Positions 10,863 through 32,367 of a DNA stretch of 32,530 nucleotides are shown here, piece after piece. Where the stretch lies: NCBI GenBank assembly GCA_019894715.1, contig JAGXOA010000202.1, positions 1-32,530 of the forward strand, read 5' to 3'. The stretch is from Promethearchaeota archaeon. Its GTDB lineage: Archaea > Asgardarchaeota > Lokiarchaeia > Sigyniarchaeales > SOKP01. The notes below the pieces were generated by a model. The model made no database searches. It had not been told where the DNA came from and was given only the letters and a program-made list of their open reading frames with translations. Each line of letters begins with the position of its first letter. Position 1 is the stretch's first letter. The translations under genes were made by a program, and so were the position numbers.

Positions 10863-11504
10863 ATGCTATTATCAATTTCGCAGGTTGGAATCGTTTTAGG
10901 TGTATGTACTAAAACATTAAGGCGGTGGCATCGAAAAGATATATTTATCCCTAATTGTAGGACTGTAGGAGGGCATAGAAGATATTCTATAGAAAATATT
11001 GAGTCATTTATAGAAATCGAATCGAAAAATAATAGGATAAGAAAACGATTACAAACCACTCCACCTGTTCAAAAGTTTCAAACCGCGGCTATTTATGGTC
11101 GAGTATCTGCCTCGAAGCAAAAAAATGATATAAAAAGGCAAATTGAATATCTTGTACGGCAATCTCAAGACGCAGGTATTCGCACTCATATCATTTATAA
11201 AGATATTGCCTCCAGATTAAATGATAAGAGGTCTGGTCTAAAAAGACTGATAAGGGATGCATTTGCTCAAAAATTTACTACAATCTTCATTACTCATAAA
11301 GATCGGCTCGCAAGGTTTGGTACTTCTCTCATTTATCAAATTTTGAGACTTTTAAATATAGAAATCTTAGATGATGACCTTAAATCTAAAACCCAACAAG
11401 ATAGTAATGAAGCCCCCATGAATACCTTAGTAAATGATGTTCTTGCGATCCTCACCTCATATTCTGGTAAGTTATATCGACTACGTCGAGGTACTTTTAC
11501 GTGA
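10863..11504 (+). CDS. tnpA: IS607-type serine recombinase/transposase
   Basis: The 213-residue protein has an N-terminal MerR-like helix-turn-helix (residues about 4-50, with LGVCTKTLRRWHRK and VGGHRRYSIE) followed by a small serine-recombinase catalytic domain. YGRVSASKQK at 78-87 contains the nucleophile Ser82, and THKDRLARFG at 144-153 carries the conserved arginines. The C-terminal part (NDVLAILTSYSGKLYRLRR) matches the conserved end of IS607 TnpA proteins. It seems complete and could excise and insert DNA through a circular intermediate without strong target choice. The ATG at 10863 lies close to the left break in the ligase gene. The codons are less AT-biased than those of neighbouring genes. 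Confidence 0.93.
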   Translation: MLLSISQVGIVLGVCTKTLRRWHRKDIFIPNCRTVGGHRRYSIENIESFIEIESKNNRIRKRLQTTPPVQKFQTAAIYGRVSASKQKNDIKRQIEYLVRQSQDAGIRTHIIYKDIASRLNDKRSGLKRLIRDAFAQKFTTIFITHKDRLARFGTSLIYQILRLLNIEILDDDLKSKTQQDSNEAPMNTLVNDVLAILTSYSGKLYRLRRGTFT

Positions 11505-11590
11505 AGCGCTTTAGAAAATTACTTAATCACTACTCCTTCCTCAAATAAATATCATTATTTCTTTTTTCGGATAAGAAATAACTACAAATT

Positions 11591-12229
11591 GTGACAATAA
11601 ATTTGGAACTAATTCGCCTTCCTCAGGACCAAATTATAGAAGATGGGACTTCCTCGTTTAAACCGGGCATTTTTAAGGTTTGTCCGGAGAAAGAAGCGGT
11701 GAGAACCTATTCTAATGGACTTAGCTTTAAGCATATTCCCGGACCTAAGCGAAGGACTTATCAATTAGCGGTTGCAAAGCGTGTACGAGAGTTGGGGATT
11801 GAGTCTCTAAATAAATGTTATAAATATGCCCCTTTCATTATGTTACTCTTTGAGCGTTATAAAGAGCTGAAAAAATGTGTTGATACTGCACCTCAGCAGG
11901 AAAAAATAGGTGTGAATCAAGAAATAAAAGGATTTTTAGAAAAGCTTGGATTAAATACTTCACGTTTTAAAGAAAATACTATTTTCGGAGTATTAACTAA
12001 AAAACTATGTTCTAGTGAGCCTAAGTATTTAGCCGCTAAGTTTGCAGAATTATGTAAAGATCGTACTAATTTGGGGCAATCCTCCTTTCTTAGACTGGTT
12101 GGTACAGGGCGAGGCTATATTGAAGCGATTGAAAAGGTAACCTGGTTGTTAAAACGTTTTCAGTCTGAACCGGCTGAATTTGTATCATTTTTATTTATTG
12201 GCACTTTATATTCACATCTTAATGTATAA
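11591..12229 (+). CDS. Unrecognised partner protein of the IS607-like element
   Basis: I do not recognise this 212-residue product. It starts at GTG 11591, 86 bases after tnpA. It is rich in basic residues, mixed alpha-helical, with blocks FKHIPGPKRRTYQLAVAKRV (residues about 47-66) and FLRLVGTGRGYIEAIEKVTW (about 164-183). None of the RuvC or zinc-ribbon motifs of TnpB is present. In IS607 elements the second gene is usually tnpB, so this may be the N-terminal part of a diverged TnpB/Fanzor/Cas12-like protein whose nuclease half was lost, or a different cargo protein. The frame ends at a TAA at the border to AT-rich DNA. Base composition matches tnpA, not the host. Confidence 0.6.
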   Translation: MTINLELIRLPQDQIIEDGTSSFKPGIFKVCPEKEAVRTYSNGLSFKHIPGPKRRTYQLAVAKRVRELGIESLNKCYKYAPFIMLLFERYKELKKCVDTAPQQEKIGVNQEIKGFLEKLGLNTSRFKENTIFGVLTKKLCSSEPKYLAAKFAELCKDRTNLGQSSFLRLVGTGRGYIEAIEKVTWLLKRFQSEPAEFVSFLFIGTLYSHLNV

Positions 12230-15583: not shown

Positions 15584-15710
15584 ATCCTCAGTGGACGAGG
15601 AATCATTCCTATCTCAATGGAATGGTTTTCTACGACATATAGACTAATCCATACTAGAAGCGATTGTGCACTCGTAGGAAACCACGGCCTTTAGGCCGTG
15701 TGTAGTTCAC
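15584..15710 (+). mobile_element. omega-RNA-like right end of a TnpB element, copy 2, complete
   Basis: This is the full-length internal copy of the repeat also found at 1-127 and 32406-32530. It carries GGACGAGGAATC, TGGAATGGTTTTCTACGA, AGAAGCGATTGTGCACTCGT, a hairpin CACGGCCTTTAGGCCGTG and the end GTAGTTCAC (15702-15710). The bases just upstream (CGCGTAAATCCTCAGTGG) read RVNPQW, which looks like the very C-terminus of a TnpB, but no tnpB precedes it. In intact elements the RNA continues past the end GTAGTTCAC into flanking DNA, which serves as guide. Here that flank is the antisense of the GH94 gene 3' end. The repeat end supplies the stop codon of that gene. Confidence 0.75.
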
Positions 15711-18073
15711 TTTCCCATTTTAACAATAACATTATGTTTTTTATTATCATTAAAAATTGGAATCAAATTTCCTTCTATAGTTTTATTGTCTATACTTATT
15801 TCTTGTATTCCTTTTGAAATATTTTGTGGATTTTGAACATTGATATTATAAATTGAATTTCTGAAATGACGCATAATACTAAATCCATTCCACGCTGTAG
15901 GGATACAAGGGTCGATTAGTAAACCATTGAAGTCAGATCTTATACCAAGAATCCAATCTGTTGCTGCTTTTAATGTCCATGCTGCTGTTCCTGTAAGCCA
16001 AGAATTCTTTGCTTTTCCAAATTTTGGGTGATTATTCCCCGTTATCATTTGAGAAAATACATAAGGTTCTGTCATATGAATTTCTGCTATATTATTTTTT
16101 GTTGTTGGTGCTATTTTTTTATAATATTCATAGGCATAATTACCTCTTCCTAAAATACATTCTGCTATTTCAACCCAAGGGTTAGTATGACTAAAAATAC
16201 TACCATTTTCTTTAAGACCTGGTGGAAAAGTTGTTATTCCCCCCATTTCAGGATAATAATGAGTATAAGGAGGATTCAATAATTTTATACCATAATCAGT
16301 AACTAAATTTTCTCTTACTGAATTCATACATTGTAATGCTCTATTTTCAGAAGTAATTCCACTATATACGGCCCAAGATTGAGTATTGAGAAATATTTTA
16401 CCTTCATTATTTTTATGACTTCCTAACACTGAACCATTATCGTCATAAGCACGTATGTACCATTTCCCATCCCAAGCTTTTGAATTAAGATGTTCTTTCA
16501 TATCTTTTGCTAGATTTATATATTCTAAACTATCTTCTTTCATACCTAATTCTTGGGCTATATCACTTAAATCCAATAAAGCTTTATGGTATTGCATGGC
16601 AATCATTACACTCTCACCATGTTTGTTAGGTCCATGCAATTGAAGAGTATCATTCCAATCAGCAGTTCCAATTAATGGAAATCCATGAGGACCAATATTA
16701 TTCTTTGTGAATTCTATTGCTTTTTTAAGATGTTCATATAAATCTCCTTTTGAGCCTTCTACATATGCCACATCTTGTTTTAAAATAGAAAGATCTCCAG
16801 TCTCTTTTAGGTAATTACTTACTGCAAAGATCATCCATAAATGATCATCACCAAAAAAAAACTGATGAGTATTAGTATAATTAGGAAAATCTCCTTTATT
16901 TGTTAATGGATAATAGAGATGATAAACTTTTCCACTTTCAAATTGGGTCTCTGCTATTATTAATAATCTTTGACGAACTTGCTCAGGAATTCTATTACAA
17001 ACACCTAAGGAGTCTTGATTAAAATCTCGAAATCCTATACCTCTTCCGATTCCGGTTTCATAAAATGATACATAACGAGCCCAATCAAAAGTCATTTTAC
17101 ATTGGTATGGATTCCATGTATTCACAATTAAATTAAAGTCTTCATCTGGAGTATTTATTTCATATTTATCAAGATAAAAACTCCATTTTTTTTTCAATTC
17201 TTCTAAAGAGGATTCAATCTTCTCTATGTTATTATATTTGCTTGTTATATCTTTTATCTTGGATTTTTCTTGAGTGATCCCTAAAAGAAAAATAACTTTT
17301 TTTGTTTCATTTGGATTTAGAGATATTTTACTAGAAGTTGCTGCTATAGGATTTCCTCCTAAAGCAATTGAATTCGAACATACACCTTTTTCGACACTTA
17401 TTGGATTTTCCTCAGAACGATAATTGCCTATAAAAGCATCCCTATCCCCGTCGTAGGTATCAATATTATTACTAGAATAAAAAAAAACCAATCCATTAAA
17501 TAAACTAAACAGATGATAGATTATGGCATTTTGTTCTTCATCATATTTGGATACGGCAATATTTTGACTATATTGTAAATCTATTTGATCATTTTCAGCA
17601 TCCCATAGACAGAATTCCGCATATGAAAATAAATCTAAATTCTTTTGCTCAGAAGTTTCATTTTTTACAGTAAGCATCCAAATTTCTAAATTATCATTTA
17701 TAGGTACGAAATATAAAATCTCACTACTAATTCCTTGATATGATGAACTTATTTTTGTATACCCTAATCCATGAGTACATCTATAATTTTCAAGTTTATT
17801 CATTGTTGGTTGCCAAGTAGGAGACCAATATTCAGAAGTCTCTCTATCTCGTAAATATAAATAACGTCCAGGTCGATCAACAGGAATATTATTATATCTA
17901 TATCGAAGGATCCTGTTACTTTTTGGATCAATATAAAAACTAAATCCCCCGCCTGTATTAGAAATCATTGCACAATACTTGCCATTATTGAGATAATTTA
18001 TCCAAGGTGTAGGTGTGTCTGGTCTTGTAATAATATACTCTCTATCCTTAACAGAAAAATAACCATATTTCAT
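15707..18073 (-). CDS. GH94 glycoside phosphorylase, cellobiose phosphorylase-like
   Basis: The 788-residue protein aligns by eye over its full length with bacterial cellobiose phosphorylases: an N-terminal GYFSVKDREYIITRPDTPTP, YRYNNIPVDRPGRYLY (58-73), the catalytic-domain blocks GIGRGIGFRDFNQD (341-354), IGTADWND (468-475) with the candidate general-acid aspartate, KENGSIFSHTNPWVEIAE, and EPYVFSQMITG, and a C-terminal EGNLIPI. GH94 enzymes split a beta-linked disaccharide with phosphate, giving a sugar-1-phosphate and saving ATP. Cellobiose is the best guess; chitobiose or longer cellodextrins remain possible. There is no signal peptide, so it is cytosolic and needs imported sugar. It stands alone and is divergent from the methyltransferase gene. 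Its stop codon TGA (15709-15707) lies inside the end of the TnpB-type element, but the homologous C-terminus is essentially complete. Confidence 0.92.
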   Translation of the reverse strand: MKYGYFSVKDREYIITRPDTPTPWINYLNNGKYCAMISNTGGGFSFYIDPKSNRILRYRYNNIPVDRPGRYLYLRDRETSEYWSPTWQPTMNKLENYRCTHGLGYTKISSSYQGISSEILYFVPINDNLEIWMLTVKNETSEQKNLDLFSYAEFCLWDAENDQIDLQYSQNIAVSKYDEEQNAIIYHLFSLFNGLVFFYSSNNIDTYDGDRDAFIGNYRSEENPISVEKGVCSNSIALGGNPIAATSSKISLNPNETKKVIFLLGITQEKSKIKDITSKYNNIEKIESSLEELKKKWSFYLDKYEINTPDEDFNLIVNTWNPYQCKMTFDWARYVSFYETGIGRGIGFRDFNQDSLGVCNRIPEQVRQRLLIIAETQFESGKVYHLYYPLTNKGDFPNYTNTHQFFFGDDHLWMIFAVSNYLKETGDLSILKQDVAYVEGSKGDLYEHLKKAIEFTKNNIGPHGFPLIGTADWNDTLQLHGPNKHGESVMIAMQYHKALLDLSDIAQELGMKEDSLEYINLAKDMKEHLNSKAWDGKWYIRAYDDNGSVLGSHKNNEGKIFLNTQSWAVYSGITSENRALQCMNSVRENLVTDYGIKLLNPPYTHYYPEMGGITTFPPGLKENGSIFSHTNPWVEIAECILGRGNYAYEYYKKIAPTTKNNIAEIHMTEPYVFSQMITGNNHPKFGKAKNSWLTGTAAWTLKAATDWILGIRSDFNGLLIDPCIPTAWNGFSIMRHFRNSIYNINVQNPQNISKGIQEISIDNKTIEGNLIPIFNDNKKHNVIVKMGK

Positions 18074-23125: not shown

Positions 23126-26100
23126 TTAAGATGGAAATTCTGTAATCAGTCCAACATAGTATTGAGCTATAAGAAGCGCATCAACAATATCTACAGCCCC
23201 ATCATTATTTACATCTGCTAACTCTGCATGAAATCCTGGTTGAGGTACACCCACATAATATTGGGCCGTCATTAGAGCATCCACAATATCAATAACACCA
23301 TCCATATTGACATCTCCTATGGCATATACTGGTCCTATAACCCCAAGAGCAAATATTCCCAAATTATTTATTTTGATATATGCTAGATTTGTTAAAAGAT
23401 CTATCTCTATATCAAAATCAACAATATCCCAAGTATTCGTTGTCTCATTCCAAATCATTAATGAAAGAATATCACTATTTAAATCATAATTTTCTGGTAA
23501 TGATACACTAAGAATAAAGGGATATTCAGGATCATTTAATGATATGCTATAATCAGGCTGATCTGTATCAATGATAAAATAAATCCCATTGTTTGTATTG
23601 AATGGATTACTTGAACCACTTATAGGATTTTCATTCCATACACCTCCGAAGATAACAGCTCCTAAGGTAGTAATACTTATGATTTCAAGATCTCCCAAAG
23701 GAATGTTCGTATATGTTTGATGTTCATACAATTCAACACTATCTATAGTATTTAATTCGATTAGGTTATTCTCCAAAACTAAAATGTGTATATCATGTCT
23801 AATATAAGTTGACATAATTGGATCATAAAAAATTGCTGTTATTGTATAAACACCTGGAGGTAAAATATTTGAATCTATATTAAAATTTATACTGCTTCCT
23901 ACATTCCAATCAATGATCTCCCCTAATGGATTCTCCCAATCAAAATTAAAAAATATTTCACATTTTGGAATAATGATCATTGATTCTGAAAGTATCCAAG
24001 TTAATTTGAAAGTCTCAATATTAACATCATTATAGACATATGAGAGATCATTTGGATTTTGAACTTTTGGTTGTTCATATTTACTTAAAGCAAAAATACC
24101 CCATTCTAATAAACGAAAAGTATAAGTACCTCGAATCCAATCAATTTCATCAAGAAAATCCGTATAAACCCATCTGTTATTAATGGAATCCCATTTCATA
24201 AGAATATAGTTATCTTCTTCAGGATTATAATCTCCTGGTAAAGATACTGTAAATAATGTTGGATATACTATTGATGTAAAATTTATAGGAGCGCTACCTT
24301 GAATTGTAAAAAAAAGCGTATCACTAATAAAAGGATTTTGGTCATTTACAGGATTTTGATCCCATTCTCCAACCATTATAACTGTTTGAGAAATGATGTG
24401 AATTTGTTCACATGTAATATCTGTACTCCCAAACGTCCTAGGAATACCATGTAATGGATATTCACCATATATTTCGCTAGCTATATTATTAGGATTATGT
24501 GCAACATCACTATCAAGAATATACACCAAAACTTCATCAATTATATAACTATTTGGGTCTCCAGCATAATCTTCCCAGACTACTAACCAAATATAATGAA
24601 AGCCAATATTAAGTGCTAATTCATTACAATCAAAACTAACAATTGCACTAGAACTCCATTGATTAAGAGGGGTGATAGCTTGACCGTCTAAATATACAAC
24701 TAATTGAGGATCAATTACATTGTTATCATAAACTGTCCAACTTAAAGGGTTAGGAGTTGTAACTCCTTCATATGAAATGATATCCTCTGAACCATATATT
24801 ATTGGTGGGCCATCTGGTATATCCGGTGTCACATAAATACTTATTGGATTATATGTCATAGACATACCATTATCATTCATAGCGCTTATTGTAAATTCAT
24901 GATAACCTACTTCTGAAATAAGATCATAAGACCCCGATGGTGATGTACTAATTTCATTAGCAACTGTTGCACTTGGAGGTTTATATAAAATAGATACAGA
25001 TTCAATTGATCTTGGATAATAATCCGAAATTGACCAATAAAAAATTCCTGGATTTAGAACTGTTGGAGAATCAGGTACTGTAATAGATACTTGAAAAGCA
25101 GGATCTATAGTATTTAATGGATCAAATCCATTATCAATTTCCCAACCATCAGATAACCCATCTAAATCTGTATCCCAATATACATGTAAAGTGCCTTGAC
25201 TAACTTCAATTCCATCTTTGATGCCATCATGGTCTGTATCATCACTATTTGGATCTGAATAACATTCAACATCAAATGTAATAATCTCAGCGCCATTATA
25301 AATTTGAACGGTCTGAATTATGCCATTTATTTCTTCATTATCATCCAGATCATCAAAATCACTATCTGGTTCATTAGGTAAGGTTTCATATACAAATATT
25401 TCATAACCATCAATAATCGTATCACCGTCACTATCAGGATCAGTAGGAGATGTTCCATAATAATGTATTTCATGACCATCTAGAACATAATCATTATCAT
25501 AATCAGGATCTCTTGGATCTGGATCTAAAGATAAAGACAATAAATCCTGATCTAAGTCATCATCAGCAACAATTGGATTTGATTTAAAGTAATAAATCTC
25601 TTCAATATCAAGAAAACCATCTCCATCACTATCTACCATTTCTGTAGATGTAGATCCTTGCATATATATTGGATCGGCCCAATATCTATATTCGGCACCA
25701 TCATCAATTCCATCTCTATCTGAATCTGGATGATAAGGATCTGAGTTAAATTCGTTTACTTCCTGAGAATTTGTTAGAGTATCTCCATCAGAATCAACAA
25801 TTTGAATTGGAATTTCGACAGCAGGGAAAAGTGTACTAGCTTGGTTTAAATTTCTAAATGCATTATGTGCAAATCCAAATGTACTAAAAGCACTGAATAC
25901 ACTTATTCGAGTATCGTCAAGCGGATCATTAACATCTTGTATGTTCCAAATATTTAATGAATAGGTTTCTGGAAGCTCATCATATTTGCTGTCAAATTTA
26001 ACATTTGCGTCAAAATTTGCATAATATACAAGCGAAAACATAAACGTAGTTAAGCAATTATGTGCATAATACAACGCCTCAGGCTCTCCTTTAATAGATT

Positions 26101-27664
26101 CCTCATTTGCAGTTTGATATTGAGCATAATAATATCCATACTTACCTATATCATTAAAATCAACTACTCCATCTCCTGTAAGATCATCTATTTGATTTAC
26201 ATTTGTATTGAAAGAATTATAGACAGCATTACTACCCCACCGAACTGCATTATCACTTGGGATTATATTCCCTGTACTTTTTTCTATACAATTATTTACA
26301 TTATCACGTAATAACCACTGTGGTTCACCAGAGGGAAGCTCTTCGTTAATTTGAATAAAAGCTTGACTTGTTTTAAGAACTTCCAGAGCAATTTGAACTG
26401 CCGCATAAATTGATGCCTTCAAATAATTAAGATTAACCATATAAGCGGCATAATTTATAGTCTTTATTTCTTGAGCTGCCTGTTGAGCCTTTAAGATATC
26501 AGCTGTAAGAAGCATGCATATAAGAGGTATTGCTGCTGCTGCACCACCAGAAAATATGGATAACATATCGTCAATAAATTGATAAACATTTATTGCGAGT
26601 TCTCTGTTTTCTTCTGTATTTGGAAGCCCTAATATTTCAAAACCTAACCCTACAAGCCCCTCTACTATCATATCTTTTGCATAGTCTTTTACTTTGTCTA
26701 CTATTTTATCCTTAAATCCTAATGGATCTCCTTGTTTTCCTTCTATAAAATCAGAAACTATTTCTCTATATCCCATAATTGAGTTAAAGTCTGCTGTATA
26801 ATCTATAGGATTAAGATCTGCTGCTTGCATTTTTTGCATTAGATAAGAATTAAAAGCTGGTTCCAATTCAAAATTTATCTTTACATGTGGAATATATAAA
26901 TTGAACATTTGATAAGGATTTGGAGTAAAAGTTTGTGGATCGACACCATTAGTTTCAGCAGTTCCTTCATATATCAATGTATAAACTTCCCATTGTTGTT
27001 CAATGTCCAATATAACAGGTTTATGATATTCTGGATATATATGGGAATTTGTTAAAACATTTGATTGACCACTTGGTAAAGCAGTTATATCATATAGAAA
27101 TGTTCCATCTTTATATACACTATAGATTGCACCAATTCTTTCTAATAGATTTTTAAGGCCAGCATCAACCCCTAATGGTGGAATAGATACAGTTTGATAT
27201 ACTGAACTTGTTCCAGGGCCTGGATAATATTGATTTGGTATAATAATTCCGAAATCATTTTCAAAAGCAGATTGACCACCCGGATAATTGTTTATATCAT
27301 TATATGGTACTTGAACATGATAATCTGAACCAAAAGCACCAGTATTAAAACCATAAGGTCCAACGTTTATTTTCTGCTGGCTAGGGTCCAAAGGTTGATA
27401 ATATGCAGAATAGATATTCCCTCTATACATATCATCTTCCCCCAATATCATCTCTGAATAGAGTGTCTCTTGTATTCCTTGACTTGCACTCGTTCTCAAT
27501 GAATCTACTAGATTTTTATTAATTTCAAGAGTTTTAACATCTTTTTGAGCATTCGTTTTTTGCATCTCTTTATTAATACTTATTAAGGATGAAAAACCAC
27601 TAAAAAGTATTGTAAAGATTAGGCAACTAATTATAAATTTGCCTCTAAAACTATTAATTTTCAT
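23126..27664 (-). CDS. Large secreted protein with TSP3-like calcium repeats and C-terminal dockerin
   Basis: The 1512-residue protein begins with a signal peptide or anchor (IISCLIFTILFSGFSSLISI, residues about 11-30). Residues about 40-470 form an unrecognised alpha-rich domain. Near residue 490 is a lone dockerin/EF-hand-like loop, DLTGDGVVDFNDIGKYGYYY. Residues about 620-852 hold many DxDxDGxxDxxE repeats (for example DSDGDGFLDIEE, DSDRDGIDDGAE), like thrombospondin type 3 calcium repeats. Then come Ig-like beta domains, including a duplicated unit of about 145 residues whose copies end in GIFALSKYE and GIFALGVIG. The end is a type I dockerin with two calcium repeats (GDVNMDGVIDIVDALMTAQY and DVNNDGAVDIVDALLIAQY). 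Dockerins bind cohesins; no cohesin is in the window. It is probably exported to the cell surface. Upstream lies the propeller/wHTH regulator gene, same strand. Confidence 0.9.
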   Translation of the reverse strand: MKINSFRGKFIISCLIFTILFSGFSSLISINKEMQKTNAQKDVKTLEINKNLVDSLRTSASQGIQETLYSEMILGEDDMYRGNIYSAYYQPLDPSQQKINVGPYGFNTGAFGSDYHVQVPYNDINNYPGGQSAFENDFGIIIPNQYYPGPGTSSVYQTVSIPPLGVDAGLKNLLERIGAIYSVYKDGTFLYDITALPSGQSNVLTNSHIYPEYHKPVILDIEQQWEVYTLIYEGTAETNGVDPQTFTPNPYQMFNLYIPHVKINFELEPAFNSYLMQKMQAADLNPIDYTADFNSIMGYREIVSDFIEGKQGDPLGFKDKIVDKVKDYAKDMIVEGLVGLGFEILGLPNTEENRELAINVYQFIDDMLSIFSGGAAAAIPLICMLLTADILKAQQAAQEIKTINYAAYMVNLNYLKASIYAAVQIALEVLKTSQAFIQINEELPSGEPQWLLRDNVNNCIEKSTGNIIPSDNAVRWGSNAVYNSFNTNVNQIDDLTGDGVVDFNDIGKYGYYYAQYQTANEESIKGEPEALYYAHNCLTTFMFSLVYYANFDANVKFDSKYDELPETYSLNIWNIQDVNDPLDDTRISVFSAFSTFGFAHNAFRNLNQASTLFPAVEIPIQIVDSDGDTLTNSQEVNEFNSDPYHPDSDRDGIDDGAEYRYWADPIYMQGSTSTEMVDSDGDGFLDIEEIYYFKSNPIVADDDLDQDLLSLSLDPDPRDPDYDNDYVLDGHEIHYYGTSPTDPDSDGDTIIDGYEIFVYETLPNEPDSDFDDLDDNEEINGIIQTVQIYNGAEIITFDVECYSDPNSDDTDHDGIKDGIEVSQGTLHVYWDTDLDGLSDGWEIDNGFDPLNTIDPAFQVSITVPDSPTVLNPGIFYWSISDYYPRSIESVSILYKPPSATVANEISTSPSGSYDLISEVGYHEFTISAMNDNGMSMTYNPISIYVTPDIPDGPPIIYGSEDIISYEGVTTPNPLSWTVYDNNVIDPQLVVYLDGQAITPLNQWSSSAIVSFDCNELALNIGFHYIWLVVWEDYAGDPNSYIIDEVLVYILDSDVAHNPNNIASEIYGEYPLHGIPRTFGSTDITCEQIHIISQTVIMVGEWDQNPVNDQNPFISDTLFFTIQGSAPINFTSIVYPTLFTVSLPGDYNPEEDNYILMKWDSINNRWVYTDFLDEIDWIRGTYTFRLLEWGIFALSKYEQPKVQNPNDLSYVYNDVNIETFKLTWILSESMIIIPKCEIFFNFDWENPLGEIIDWNVGSSINFNIDSNILPPGVYTITAIFYDPIMSTYIRHDIHILVLENNLIELNTIDSVELYEHQTYTNIPLGDLEIISITTLGAVIFGGVWNENPISGSSNPFNTNNGIYFIIDTDQPDYSISLNDPEYPFILSVSLPENYDLNSDILSLMIWNETTNTWDIVDFDIEIDLLTNLAYIKINNLGIFALGVIGPVYAIGDVNMDGVIDIVDALMTAQYYVGVPQPGFHAELADVNNDGAVDIVDALLIAQYYVGLITEFPS

Positions 27665-27877
27665 TTTTTTTAGATTGTTTTTTTTTTAAAGTTTATATAA
27701 AATCATCCAATATCTTGGATTAATCTAAAAAAAATTAAAGTGTATTAAATAATTTAAGGTATACTTATCTAACTATTATTTAAGCGAAAAAAATAATTGG
27801 AAATAATATATTTATACAAAATCTATTGGATAAGATAATTCATAAGAAAAGTTTAAGCTTTAATCCACTAAAATATC
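27665..27877. other. Short intergenic gap upstream of the dockerin gene
   Basis: About 210 bases between two minus-strand genes. It is AT-rich with a run of A/T next to the dockerin ATG, and it would hold that gene's promoter. I see no clear operator, though a site for the neighbouring membrane regulator would be expected here if it controls this gene. Confidence 0.35.
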
Positions 27878-30097
27878 CTATTTTTTGATATATAATTTTA
27901 AAAACCGACCCTCTTTAATAGATGTTATCAATTTTTTCTTTTCTAATTTATGAATATGATAATTAATTGTACTTCTTTGAAAGTTAAGATTATCTGCAAT
28001 AACAGATGGAATTATTCCAGGATTTTTTTCAATAATATCTAATATTGTTAAACTTGTGTCTGATTTTATCAAGATATCATTATATCTTTTTGATTCATAT
28101 TTTTCCCTTATTGGGTAAAAAAGATTATATTGTCCTATCTTTCTTTTTTTTATTATTCCATATTCTAATAAGACTCTTAAATGCCATTGTAATTGACCAT
28201 GGGAGAGATCACATTCTCTCAATAATTCATTATAGTGAATTCCTGAATTATTAAGAATATTTTCGATTATATTTTGGCGGTTTTCATTCTCAAAGATTTT
28301 ATCAAAAGTAATTTTACGAAAGGATATATTTTCAATGTCTTTAGTTTTTAGATATGATTTATATTCTTTTAGAGTAATTACTAACGAAATTGATATTAAA
28401 ATTAGTAAAATTATTCCTATTAAAAGCAAGAAATAAGGAATTATAAAAACAAAGTAATTATCTGAAAATAAGTTTATTTCATTTTCACGATTGTAATTTA
28501 TCTGAATGATCTGAATTGATATAATACTTGCACTTAAGAGAAGATTAGTTCCATTTACAAATGTTTTTTTCCTAAATGATCTAAAATTTATCTTAGATTT
28601 GTTATCATATAATAATAAAATTCCAGTAATCCCCAATATCAATAAGCTCAGAACTAAATTTATATAATAAAAATCAATAGGAATGGGAATTGGTTGCATT
28701 GAGAAAAAAATATACATTATTTCAATATCATTGCCCCATATTCCATCTGTTCCGTCTGACCATACAATATGCAAATTTCCCAAAGTATCAAAAGCCATTG
28801 ATGGATTTGCGCTATTATCATCATTCCAATATACTCCGTTATAACCATCAGATATTATTGTAATATTTGACCATCCAGAAATATTGTTAAAACGTGTCAA
28901 CATGATTTCTGCATCATTACCCCATTTACCATTAGTATGACCTTGCCATATGACATATGGATTACCTAATTGATCTATTGTTATTTTTGGTATCCAATTA
29001 TCTCCATTATTCCACCCTGTCTCGTCATCAGATATTATTGTAATATTAGACCAATAATATCCATCATTAGACGAAACATACATAATCTCTGTATTATTAT
29101 CCCAATTTCCATCTGTTTCATCCATCCATACAACATTCAGCTCTCCTATATTATTCACAGCAATTGAAGGAAAAAAAGACCATCCGTCATTCCATTCTGT
29201 ACCATTAAATCCGTCTGAAATTACGGTAGCATTTGACCATATTATACCATCTGTTGAGGAGGAATATAAAATATCCATATCAGCACCCCATATACCATCT
29301 GTAGTACCAGACCAGACTATATGTCTCTTGCCATTACTATCAACAGTTATTTCTGGAGAAAAGCAACTTCTTGAATAAGAATATGTTCCATTATATCCAT
29401 CAGAAATTACTGAAGCATTCGACCATGATATGCCATCTGTTGAGGAAAGATACATAATTTCAGGACCCATACCCCATATACCATTTGTATTATCCTCCCA
29501 AACTACATGAATTCTACTTGAATTATCTACTATAATATCTGGATAATTACTATCTCCATCATTCCAATATGTCCCATTAAAACCATCCGAAATTACGGTA
29601 GCATTTGACCATTCTATTCCATCTAATGATGATGAATACATAATTTCTGTATCATTTCCCCATGTCCCATTTGTCCAATCCTTCCAAACAACATAAACTA
29701 TTCCATTATTATTGACTGAAATTGAAGGTTCCATACTACTTCCATTGTTCCAATATGTCCCATTAAAACCATCCGAAATCACAGTGGTATTTGACCATCC
29801 TAATTCTTCTGTATAATAACTATACATAATTTCAGTATCATTTCCCCATATACCATCTGTATTATCTTCCCAGACTACATGAATTCTATTAAAAATATCA
29901 ACATCGATGTTGGCATCTATACTATTACCATTATTCCATGGTGTTCCATCATTATCTTCTGAGATTATAACTGTATCCATATAATTAATTGAATTGGTCT
30001 TTAGTGAACTTTGATTATTTAGATTTCCAGAATTATTTAGAAGAAGGATGAAAATTGTTAAAGTAATTAATATATTAAAAAAAATAGCCTTCTTCAT
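27878..30097 (-). CDS. Membrane-bound regulator: extracellular seven-repeat propeller, TM segments, two winged helices
   Basis: The 739-residue protein starts with a signal/anchor (MKKAIFFNILITLTIFILLL). Seven repeats of about 58-66 residues follow, each with a core such as IHVVWEDNTDGIWGNDTEIM and then WSNxTVISDG. This is the pattern of BNR/sialidase-type beta-propeller blades, so a seven-bladed propeller outside the cell is likely. Three hydrophobic segments follow (about 467-492, 512-530 and 550-578). The cytoplasmic end has two winged-helix domains: ILNNSGIHYNELLRECDLSH...LQWHLRVLLEYGIIKKRK (about 605-660) and LDIIEKNPGIIPSVIADNLN...STINYHIHKLEKKKLI (about 683-730). It would act as a one-component receptor/transcription factor. 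I chose the ATG at 30097 over a TTG at 30109. Ligand and targets are unknown; the dockerin gene next to it is a natural candidate target. Confidence 0.88.
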   Translation of the reverse strand: MKKAIFFNILITLTIFILLLNNSGNLNNQSSLKTNSINYMDTVIISEDNDGTPWNNGNSIDANIDVDIFNRIHVVWEDNTDGIWGNDTEIMYSYYTEELGWSNTTVISDGFNGTYWNNGSSMEPSISVNNNGIVYVVWKDWTNGTWGNDTEIMYSSSLDGIEWSNATVISDGFNGTYWNDGDSNYPDIIVDNSSRIHVVWEDNTNGIWGMGPEIMYLSSTDGISWSNASVISDGYNGTYSYSRSCFSPEITVDSNGKRHIVWSGTTDGIWGADMDILYSSSTDGIIWSNATVISDGFNGTEWNDGWSFFPSIAVNNIGELNVVWMDETDGNWDNNTEIMYVSSNDGYYWSNITIISDDETGWNNGDNWIPKITIDQLGNPYVIWQGHTNGKWGNDAEIMLTRFNNISGWSNITIISDGYNGVYWNDDNSANPSMAFDTLGNLHIVWSDGTDGIWGNDIEIMYIFFSMQPIPIPIDFYYINLVLSLLILGITGILLLYDNKSKINFRSFRKKTFVNGTNLLLSASIISIQIIQINYNRENEINLFSDNYFVFIIPYFLLLIGIILLILISISLVITLKEYKSYLKTKDIENISFRKITFDKIFENENRQNIIENILNNSGIHYNELLRECDLSHGQLQWHLRVLLEYGIIKKRKIGQYNLFYPIREKYESKRYNDILIKSDTSLTILDIIEKNPGIIPSVIADNLNFQRSTINYHIHKLEKKKLITSIKEGRFLKLYIKK

Positions 30098-30345: not shown

Positions 30346-32367
30346 ATGAAGGAATTTAAAGTAAATGAGTATTTAACACTCAAATTAGAAAATAATAAAA
30401 CAATAATCTATGTTAAGGATGAAGAATATTTAGATTGTAAGTTTCTACTTTTGGAAATTCCAGTCAAGCAAATAACCTCTTTAAATAGTATTGATTCAAT
30501 TGACGAGGCAACAGAACGATTAGACTCTTCATTAGAAGGTTTTGAAGGTGATATTGTAAAGATTCCTCCTGAAACTGAGTTTTGGGGTCATTGCTCTAAT
30601 TTACAAGTATGGTATGAACATGATTATGATACTCGATTGCTTCATTCAAATTTATCATTTCCATTATTAAAAAAATTATCAGAAATGGGTGATCCTCTTG
30701 CTAAAAAAGTGTTCAAAGATGAAATTGTTATAAGAATTACCAGTGGATATGCTCCTGTAATTGAATATTTACTAGAAGAAGGATATTTAGATTATTTTAC
30801 AGAGGAAGAAGTAAAAACTCTATTTCAAGAATATGAATTTGTGGAACATAATGGAAAAAGAATTCCTGTAATTCATGGTTATTTAAACCTCGATGGAAAA
30901 ATAATAGTGGACTTATCAGAAGTAATAGGATTGACCGACCTCAAATCGCTCCATACTCTAATATTAGAAGCTACTCAATTAAAATCACTCCCTAAATCAA
31001 TAGGTGATCTTACATCACTTCAATCTTTAAATATAGCAAATAATCAATTAAAATCACTTCCAGAATCAATAGGTGATCTTACATCACTTCAATCTTTAAA
31101 TATAGGATGGAATCAATTAAAATCACTTCCAGAATCAATAGGTGATCTTATATCACTCCAAACTTTAAACATAGATAATAATAAGTTAACAACACTCCCA
31201 GAATCCATTGTTAATCTTACATCACTTCAATCTTTAAATATAGGAAGAAATCAATTAAAATCGCTTCCTGAATCAATAGGTAATCTTACATCACTTCAAT
31301 CTTTAAGTATAGGAAGTAATCAATTAAAATCACTTCCTAAATCAATAGGTGATCTTACATCACTTCAATCTTTAAATATAGGAAGTAATCAATTAAAGTC
31401 ACTTCCAGTATCAATAATCAATCTTAAGAAACTCAAATCCCTATCCATAGGATATATTAATTTAAACGGATTCCCTGAATCAATATGCAAACTTACATCG
31501 CTTCAAGAGATATACTTATATTCTATTAATTTAACATCACTTCCCGAGACAATAGGTAATCTTAAATCACTCCAAATTTTAACCATAGATAATAATAAGT
31601 TAACAGCACTCCCAGAATCCATTGTTAATCTTAAATCACTTCAAAAACTATATTTAAGGGATAATCAATTAAAATCGCTTCCTGAATCAATAGGTAATCT
31701 TACATCACTTCAAACATTAGTGATATCTAATAATAAGTTAACAACACTCCCAGAATCCATTGTTAATCTTAAAATGCTTCAATCTTTAAATCTAGGAAGA
31801 AATCAATTAAAATCACTTCCAGAATCAATAGACAATCTAATATCGCTTCAATCTTTAAACCTAGGAAGTAATCAATTAAAATCACTTCCAGAATCAATTG
31901 GTAATCTTACATCACTTCAATCTTTAAATCTAGGAAGAAATCAATTAAAATCACTTCCAGAGTCAACTGGTAATCTATTATCGCTTGAAATTCTTTCCTT
32001 AGACTTTAATAAGTTAACATCACTCCCTGAGTCAATAGACAATCTAATATCGCTTCAATCTTTAGAATTAGGTATTAATCAATTATCATCACTCCCTGAG
32101 TCAATTGGCAATCTTACATCTCTTCTATCTCTAAGTTTGGATGAAAATAACATATCATCGCTTCCAGAGTCATTTGGCAATCTTACATCACTTGAATATC
32201 TTTCTTTAGACAATAATTTAATAACATCATTTCCTAAGGTACTAATGACACTTCCTTTTCTTGGAATGTTAAGATTAAAGAATAATTCTCTGGGAAGAAA
32301 AATAGATTCAGAAACACAAGAAATAATTGAACAATTACAAAAAGAAGGTGTTGATATAGATCTTTAA
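30346..32367 (+). CDS. Leucine-rich-repeat protein with an Asgard-type N-terminal module
   Basis: The 673-residue protein has an N-terminal region of about 200 residues with IPPETEFWGHCSNLQVWYEH (73-92), LLHSNLSFPLLKKLSEMGDP and AKKVFKDEI. I recall this module from many repeat proteins of Lokiarchaeota. From about residue 202 follow some 19 LRRs of 23 residues with consensus LQSLNIGxNQLKSLPESIGNLTS, then an irregular cap to the end (LGMLRLKNNSLGRKI). The repeat type (LPxSIGNLxxLxxLxLxxNxL) is that of Ras-group/SHOC2-like LRRs, which in eukaryotes bind small GTPases or phosphatases. No signal peptide is present, so it is cytosolic. A link to the Ras-like GTPases of this genome is inference. 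The closing repeats are less regular than the central ones. Confidence 0.93.
   Translation: MKEFKVNEYLTLKLENNKTIIYVKDEEYLDCKFLLLEIPVKQITSLNSIDSIDEATERLDSSLEGFEGDIVKIPPETEFWGHCSNLQVWYEHDYDTRLLHSNLSFPLLKKLSEMGDPLAKKVFKDEIVIRITSGYAPVIEYLLEEGYLDYFTEEEVKTLFQEYEFVEHNGKRIPVIHGYLNLDGKIIVDLSEVIGLTDLKSLHTLILEATQLKSLPKSIGDLTSLQSLNIANNQLKSLPESIGDLTSLQSLNIGWNQLKSLPESIGDLISLQTLNIDNNKLTTLPESIVNLTSLQSLNIGRNQLKSLPESIGNLTSLQSLSIGSNQLKSLPKSIGDLTSLQSLNIGSNQLKSLPVSIINLKKLKSLSIGYINLNGFPESICKLTSLQEIYLYSINLTSLPETIGNLKSLQILTIDNNKLTALPESIVNLKSLQKLYLRDNQLKSLPESIGNLTSLQTLVISNNKLTTLPESIVNLKMLQSLNLGRNQLKSLPESIDNLISLQSLNLGSNQLKSLPESIGNLTSLQSLNLGRNQLKSLPESTGNLLSLEILSLDFNKLTSLPESIDNLISLQSLELGINQLSSLPESIGNLTSLLSLSLDENNISSLPESFGNLTSLEYLSLDNNLITSFPKVLMTLPFLGMLRLKNNSLGRKIDSETQEIIEQLQKEGVDIDL
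30949..32328 (+). repeat. Tandem 69-base repeats encoding LRRs
   Basis: About 19-20 units of 69 bases. Many are almost identical in DNA also at synonymous sites (for example AATCAATTAAAATCACTTCC and TCTTACATCACTTCAATCTT recur unit after unit). A two-unit super-repeat, NNKLTxLPESIVNL followed by NQLKSLPESI, appears at repeats 4-5, 10-11 and 12-13. This indicates recent expansion by unequal recombination or slippage, possibly still active. Confidence 0.85.

Follow-up and report, generated by a model that had tools for sequence, protein, structure and literature searches.

A predicted Lokiarchaeal transmembrane one-component regulator with a propeller ectodomain and a candidate operator upstream of surface-protein genes

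For the receptor gene in the window (the whole 32,530-nucleotide stretch of DNA that was analysed), the product is probably a Lokiarchaeal transmembrane one-component regulator, in which the propeller would sense a ligand, the winged helices (wHTHs) would bind a DNA element and surface genes would most likely be activated. The computational analysis shows the architecture, the topology signals, the family membership, the conserved element with its co-occurrence with the GQLQWHL branch, and the twin ectodomains; from these we infer the following steps. The anchored seven-bladed propeller would bind an extracellular ligand, which may be a polymer, a glycan or a partner surface protein; ligand binding would alter the three membrane helices so that the signal reaches the two cytoplasmic winged helices; the wHTH pair would bind an element of about 30 bp that adjoins, on the upstream side, the TATA region of secreted or surface protein genes; and transcription of the surface genes would, most likely, be raised. 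In the window, the gene of a dockerin-bearing surface protein is the predicted local target. The receptor would probably let the cell switch its surface proteins by what touches it from outside. For Lokiarchaea in general, the balance tips slightly towards a wider reading, in which a family of membrane tandem-wHTH receptors has ectodomains twinned with neighbouring surface proteins as interchangeable pairs, the ectodomains being unrelated (propeller, Ig-like, LamG-like and several unnamed), and one branch reads a dedicated operator of a surface-protein regulon including extracellular proteases and cohesin/dockerin proteins, as a direct kinase-free contact-to-gene pathway.

The features of the locus are listed in Table 1. 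The receptor open reading frame was present only in the minus-strand reading, and many stops were found on the plus strand of the same segment.

Table 1. Features of the receptor locus, in window coordinates
Feature	Position	Strand	Basis
Receptor CDS, transmembrane tandem-wHTH with propeller ectodomain, 739 aa	27878..30097	minus	ORF, Pfam, AlphaFold, 66%-identical ortholog
Signal sequence / N-terminal hydrophobic helix, aa 1-22	30032..30097	minus	hydropathy; model helix 2-21
Predicted extracellular 7-bladed sialidase-like beta-propeller, aa 43-466, seven ~62-aa repeats	28700..29971	minus	repeats, AlphaFold2, Foldseek
TM helix 1, aa 474-503, out to in	28589..28678	minus	hydropathy, model, loop charges
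TM helix 2, aa 508-538, in to out, weakest hydropathy of the three	28484..28576	minus	hydropathy, model, loop charges
TM helix 3, aa 548-575, out to in	28373..28456	minus	hydropathy, model, loop charges
Winged helix 1 (wHTH1), PF24266 HTH_HVO_0163_N, aa 604-664, recognition helix GQLQWHL	28106..28288	minus	Pfam, model
Winged helix 2 (wHTH2), MarR_2/HTH_24-like, aa 678-737	27887..28066	minus	Pfam, model
Candidate operator GTTAGATAAGTATACCTTAAATTATTTAAT, 79 bp upstream of dockerin gene start	27744..27773	minus	window/ortholog comparison, PWM
Dockerin gene, 1512-aa secreted protein, TSP3 repeats and C-terminal dockerin, predicted target	23126..27664	minus	ORF, Pfam, candidate operator upstream
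Dockerin domain of the neighbour, aa 1450-1502	23159..23317	minus	Pfam Dockerin_1 3.6e-9

The original prediction had described seven blade repeats, three membrane segments and two different winged helices, forming a one-component signal transducer with the propeller outside and the tandem wHTHs inside, and the AlphaFold model, the Pfam matches and the charge topology agree with this description. The blade unit of 62 aa occurs seven times at aa 54-464 (consensus WNnGdSysPsIAiDnnGnIHVVWeDdTdGiWGtDsEIMYanYtdgiGWSNaTVISDGYnG). The seventh copy is without the final strand; one is available in the N-terminal segment DTVIISED, which directly follows the signal sequence, so that the propeller can form a closed seven-blade ring. 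Completion of the last blade by an N-terminal strand is the usual closure of propellers. The AlphaFold2 model, built on a 44-row alignment (mean pLDDT 82.9, pTM 0.65), contains seven times three long strands, followed by helices at 474-503, 508-538 and 548-572/576-585 and by two wHTH folds. In Pfam, the HTH_HVO_0163_N match of the first winged helix reached 2.7e-17, and a MarR_2/HTH_24-type match above cut-off was found at aa 681-726. No Pfam family was matched by the blade repeats, and a PDB sequence search with the receptor gave little except HTH fragments. With the propeller model, most structural matches returned by Foldseek were carbohydrate-active propellers, namely sialidases, BT3686-type glycoside hydrolases (GH) and ulvan lyase (E 1e-8 to 1e-11).

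The membrane helices, which rest on hydropathy and one predicted model and of which the second is weakly hydrophobic, are joined by loops with charges of +6/-0 (first to second helix) and +1/-3 (second to third), and the part after the third helix carries +7/-4, indicating by the positive-inside pattern that the propeller is outside and the wHTHs are inside. The opposite topology, with the winged helices outside, which the original prediction had named as the outcome that would speak against it, is thus not the predicted one. N-glycosylation sequons were also tried as topology evidence; enrichment was observed in the receptor (17 vs 9.4, P=0.006) and in one relative, was not significant in the rest, and was left unused.

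A full-length ortholog of the receptor (G001:C91) with 66% identity was found in an independent genome of the same genus, so the predicted architecture is not a chance ORF. Between the two proteins, identity was 79% in wHTH1, 73% in wHTH2, 71% in the propeller and 55% in the membrane part, with the comparison of blades 1-2 blurred by alignment; the wHTHs were the best conserved parts. Many relatives consist of the same propeller and Ig-like domains without wHTH, which would fit a protein that is mainly a surface adhesin with the wHTHs as relics, but this reading is highly unlikely in view of the conservation of both winged helices and of the wHTH pair being kept in all receptor classes.

The wHTH pair is carried by three receptor classes (A, C and D); class B, a further group, shares only the propeller. 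Class A, with propeller, membrane part and wHTH pair, was found only in G000 and G001, two genomes of one genus, with several copies each, and the propeller-fused form was seen only there. Class C, with a different ectodomain of mostly ~190 aa, one membrane helix and the wHTH pair, was detected in 66 of the 79 genomes of the order, mostly once per genome. Class D, with two membrane helices and the wHTH pair in 235-275 aa, is common in the family; in its operons (L094-L107), a gene encoding a 4-TM ICMT/PEMT-like methyltransferase adjoins that of the 2-TM tandem-wHTH regulator, and in some genomes one or more genes encoding LVIVD-propeller surface proteins lie ahead. The calls of class A and D presence were classified by hand with an E-value cut-off and open-frame length, and the gene calls are simple ORF picks with hydropathy calls on draft genomes. 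That the predicted membrane/tandem-wHTH module is widespread in the order is a new observation here, as is the twin arrangement described below. Class B, also widespread, combines the class A propeller with a C-terminal anchor, has Ig-like domains in some cases and lacks the wHTH. It is expanded in a Helarchaeal genome (G054, L048-L050), where this propeller was matched about 35 times; one of the proteins has 14-15 blades and one frame is 3682 aa long, and those read were without wHTH.

The dockerin gene adjoins the receptor gene on the same strand with 213 bases between, as originally described. The suggested conserved pairing of receptor and dockerin genes failed as adjacency, since the ortholog locus has a methyltransferase gene in that place and no dockerin gene; a 28-bp stretch after the receptor gene is kept between the window and the ortholog, though the downstream gene differs. 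As read from gene order, the conserved link is with secreted and surface genes in general and with twin ectodomain genes, not with the dockerin gene. In the receptor's genus, 8 of 13 receptors adjoin a predicted secreted gene, compared with 12 of 120 (P=5e-5).

Receptors were often encoded beside a surface protein with a copy of their own ectodomain, both where this is a propeller and where it belongs to one of several other types. In class C loci (L157-L186, L109-L118), the adjoining upstream gene encodes S, a signal-plus-anchor protein, in 27/27 loci with enough flank, and the genes of the class C receptor and the S protein are a pair close to the core gene set of the order. The class C ectodomain is matched by the S profile with E-values of about 1e-7 to 1e-10 and with 97% probability in profile comparison. 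For unrelated ectodomains (L187, L189, L190, L192, L193, L112 and L198), neighbours were 33-45% identical over 150-600 aa; the AlphaFold model of the receptor at L187 had a mean pLDDT of 58, and its ectodomain model was not used. The propeller receptors of G001 at L084 and L085 are followed by genes encoding propeller surface proteins, and the receptors at L087 and L088 have Ig-like and LamG-like segments in common with secreted neighbours. At BLAST level, 11 of 43 receptors had a homologous non-receptor neighbour, while the figure for other genes was 27 of 630 (P=7e-6); related loci enter this count separately, so that the true strength is somewhat lower. The arrangement is restricted, as far as examined here. 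The window receptor is without an adjoining twin; its neighbours encode the dockerin protein on one side and, on the other, a leucine-rich-repeat protein of the cytoplasm. Because the effector often carries a copy of the receptor ectodomain, a ligand common to receptor and twin effector, or direct binding between the two, is probable.

The intergenic segment 27665-27877 had been proposed as the target of the cytoplasmic part, and the candidate operator lies inside it. The 30-bp element GTTCGAAAAGTGCACCTYAAAYCTTTAWAA tracks one wHTH branch (recognition helix GQLQWHL); its layout over ~30 bp is GTTCGAAAAGTGCACCTYAAA, then TATA-like CTTTATAA, and its consensus is GTTCGAAAAGTGCACCTTAAAC with the core GTATACC. 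The window copy is among the weaker sites (26.7 bits). An inverted-repeat search was uninformative alone in this AT-rich intergenic DNA. A probe seeded from the window and ortholog sites only found 12 sites elsewhere at up to 5 mismatches compared with 0.67 in shuffles, and the weight matrix (PWM) found 33 sites of at least 20 bits compared with 0 in shuffles of 961 kb; the matrix was trained on sites later re-found, and the two-site-seeded search, the whole-genome core search and the 83-genome test are less circular. Nearly every PWM site precedes, by 20-150 bp, a class D operon, a propeller twin or a secreted gene adjoining a receptor. In the whole-genome core search of two congeneric genomes, 27 sites were found versus 5 for the reversed pattern, and signal sequences, counted by eye from hydropathy, were present in 16 of the 23 identifiable downstream genes versus 9/155 in the background (P=1e-11). 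The genes after the element in these genomes encode proteases of four families (S8, C11, C13 and trypsin-like), LVIVD and FG-GAP propellers, a BspA-like DUF285 protein and one propeller receptor, and a weaker copy was found 51 bp upstream of a C25 protease with cohesin.

In a comparison of 83 genomes, the core pattern showed co-occurrence with class A/D regulators (P=3.6e-9), for which the reversed pattern, used as control, gave P=1.0. Of the 51 sites outside the genus, 32 had a class D gene no more than 6 kb away. The recognition helix is GQLQWHL in the motif-associated branch and G-N-L-x-WH or similar in most of the motif-less branch; class C loci, with the other recognition helix, had no element copy at >=14 bits. 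This co-occurrence, the presence of the element at the head of regulator operons and the parallel between helix change and motif presence or absence make it unlikely that a different transcription factor reads the element and controls the surface regulon and the regulator operons, the propeller receptor having another target. Consistent with such a factor, no strong site was found near the neighbours of the propeller receptors C93/L031, C158/L086 and C102/L032, of which L032 has the other recognition helix, and six genomes had a motif match without a detected class A/D gene; however, five of these are <80% complete and the sixth is 85% complete. The element is presented as a candidate operator, new here and common across genera to the same wHTH branch.

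For the sign of regulation, activation by the receptor is the preferred reading. The best conserved core immediately precedes the TATA-like element, which is the usual position of activator binding in archaea, and the better known membrane-anchored ToxR, TcpP, CadC and ArnR are activators, so that a repressor freed by ligand is a tentative and rather doubtful alternative. It has in its favour that the related ArsR/MarR-type wHTH proteins are commonly repressors released by ligand and that the conserved stretch extends into the TATA-like sequence.

By membership, the receptor is a transmembrane one-component transcription regulator (TTR). PF24266, HTH_24 and MarR_2 matches over the Pfam cut-off and the wHTH folds of the model give the DNA-binding domain, and hydropathy, model helices and positive-inside charges give at least one membrane region in the same protein; the candidate operator and regulon point indirectly to a protein that would act on transcription from the membrane. 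The first winged helix is a clear member of PF24266 (54-63 bits, curated cut-off 31), a family defined by the HTH alone, for which no description of function was found in the literature searched. TTRs are a known and widespread kind (PMC10269533), so the original view of such a receptor as uncommon holds only for the propeller fusion, which is limited to one genus, and, as far as examined here, for the twin arrangement. The text of that survey mentions neither Asgard archaea nor propellers, and a literature search on Asgard membrane regulators returned nothing specific. Like ToxR, CadC and TcpP, the receptor combines a DNA-binding domain and a membrane segment in one protein, in which an outside signal would reach DNA with no phosphorelay, and no HisKA, HATPase_c or receiver domain, as expected of a TTR/two-component hybrid, was found in it by Pfam; unlike them, it has a C-terminal two-wHTH part, a large N-terminal seven-bladed propeller and three membrane helices. 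Some TTRs pair with a second membrane protein, such as TcpP with TcpH (PMC11323476), whereas the partner in this receptor family is a copy of the ectodomain. ArnR/ArnR1 of Sulfolobus acidocaldarius are likewise archaeal membrane-bound one-component regulators, and ArnR is an activator controlling surface structures (PMC6396743); ArnR carries its HTH at the N-terminus and two membrane segments at the C-terminus, has a putative HAMP and is without propeller or tandem wHTH, whereas the domain order of the receptor is reversed and no HAMP match was found in Pfam.

The nearest functional parallel is RsgI/SigI of Clostridium thermocellum, where the sensor ectodomain is related to a secreted regulon enzyme (the RsgI6 GH10 is 57% identical to Xyn10D, a secreted protein of its own regulon) and the regulon includes cohesin/dockerin proteins, as does the candidate regulon here (PMC4711584). 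Unlike RsgI, which acts through a sigma factor, the receptor has DNA-binding domains of its own, and no RsgI_N sigma-binding domain was found by Pfam in this archaeal protein. To our knowledge, archaea use no bacterial sigma factors. Polysaccharide-sensing RsgI factors signal through cleavage (PMC12203970), and regulated proteolysis could similarly free the wHTH part from the membrane, but this is improbable, as no constantly linked protease gene was seen in the loci read; signalling through the membrane helices is preferred.

The predicted propeller fold resembles the sialidase superfamily (GH33, BT3686-type GH and PL25 ulvan lyase), with an Asp-box-like turn SSTDGIxWS. GH33 sialidase propellers have 6 blades, unlike the seven similar blades here. 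No FRIP signature/RIP motif was found in the receptor, nor any Pfam or NCBIfam sialidase match or Pfam BNR match, and the propeller, judged by its sequence, probably binds rather than catalyses. The sialidase/GH/PL propeller fold would allow a ligand that is a sugar or part of a cell surface. Extracellular proteases are prominent in the candidate regulon, so it is equally possible that the ligand is a proteinaceous or mixed polymer.

Other observations concern the genus and the window. Dockerin domains are abundant in the receptor's genus (~10 matches in G000 and ~20 in G001), cohesin PF00963 gave 7 matches there, 6 over cut-off (L142:7026-11753 = G000:C50; G000:C214; G000:C58), and relatives of the genus have scarcely any of either domain; a cohesin-dockerin surface system in Lokiarchaea is possible. 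One protein of the sister genome (L051:2-886) contains a propeller, an Ig-like segment and a dockerin-like motif, and a dockerin match (G001:C69:35809-36015) lies within an 11,376-residue open frame. In the window, the cytoplasmic protein with a long leucine-rich-repeat array (30346-32367) is encoded divergently from the receptor; a resolvase with a MerR-like HTH, then a possible TnpB-like fragment (10863-12229), resemble an IS607-type element by eye; and the gene order at a GH94-family glycoside phosphorylase (15707-18073) is kept in the sister genome (L083).

Asgard sensing of the outside and control of the surface have hardly been known so far, and a complete candidate pathway can here be read from sequence, from ectodomain, membrane part and DNA-binding part to operator and regulon. 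With the twin-ectodomain rule, the neighbour gene offers a guess at each receptor's ligand, and the twin families are a natural supply of swappable membrane receptors. If true, contact at the surface would act on genes directly, without a kinase, in the archaea most closely related to eukaryotes.
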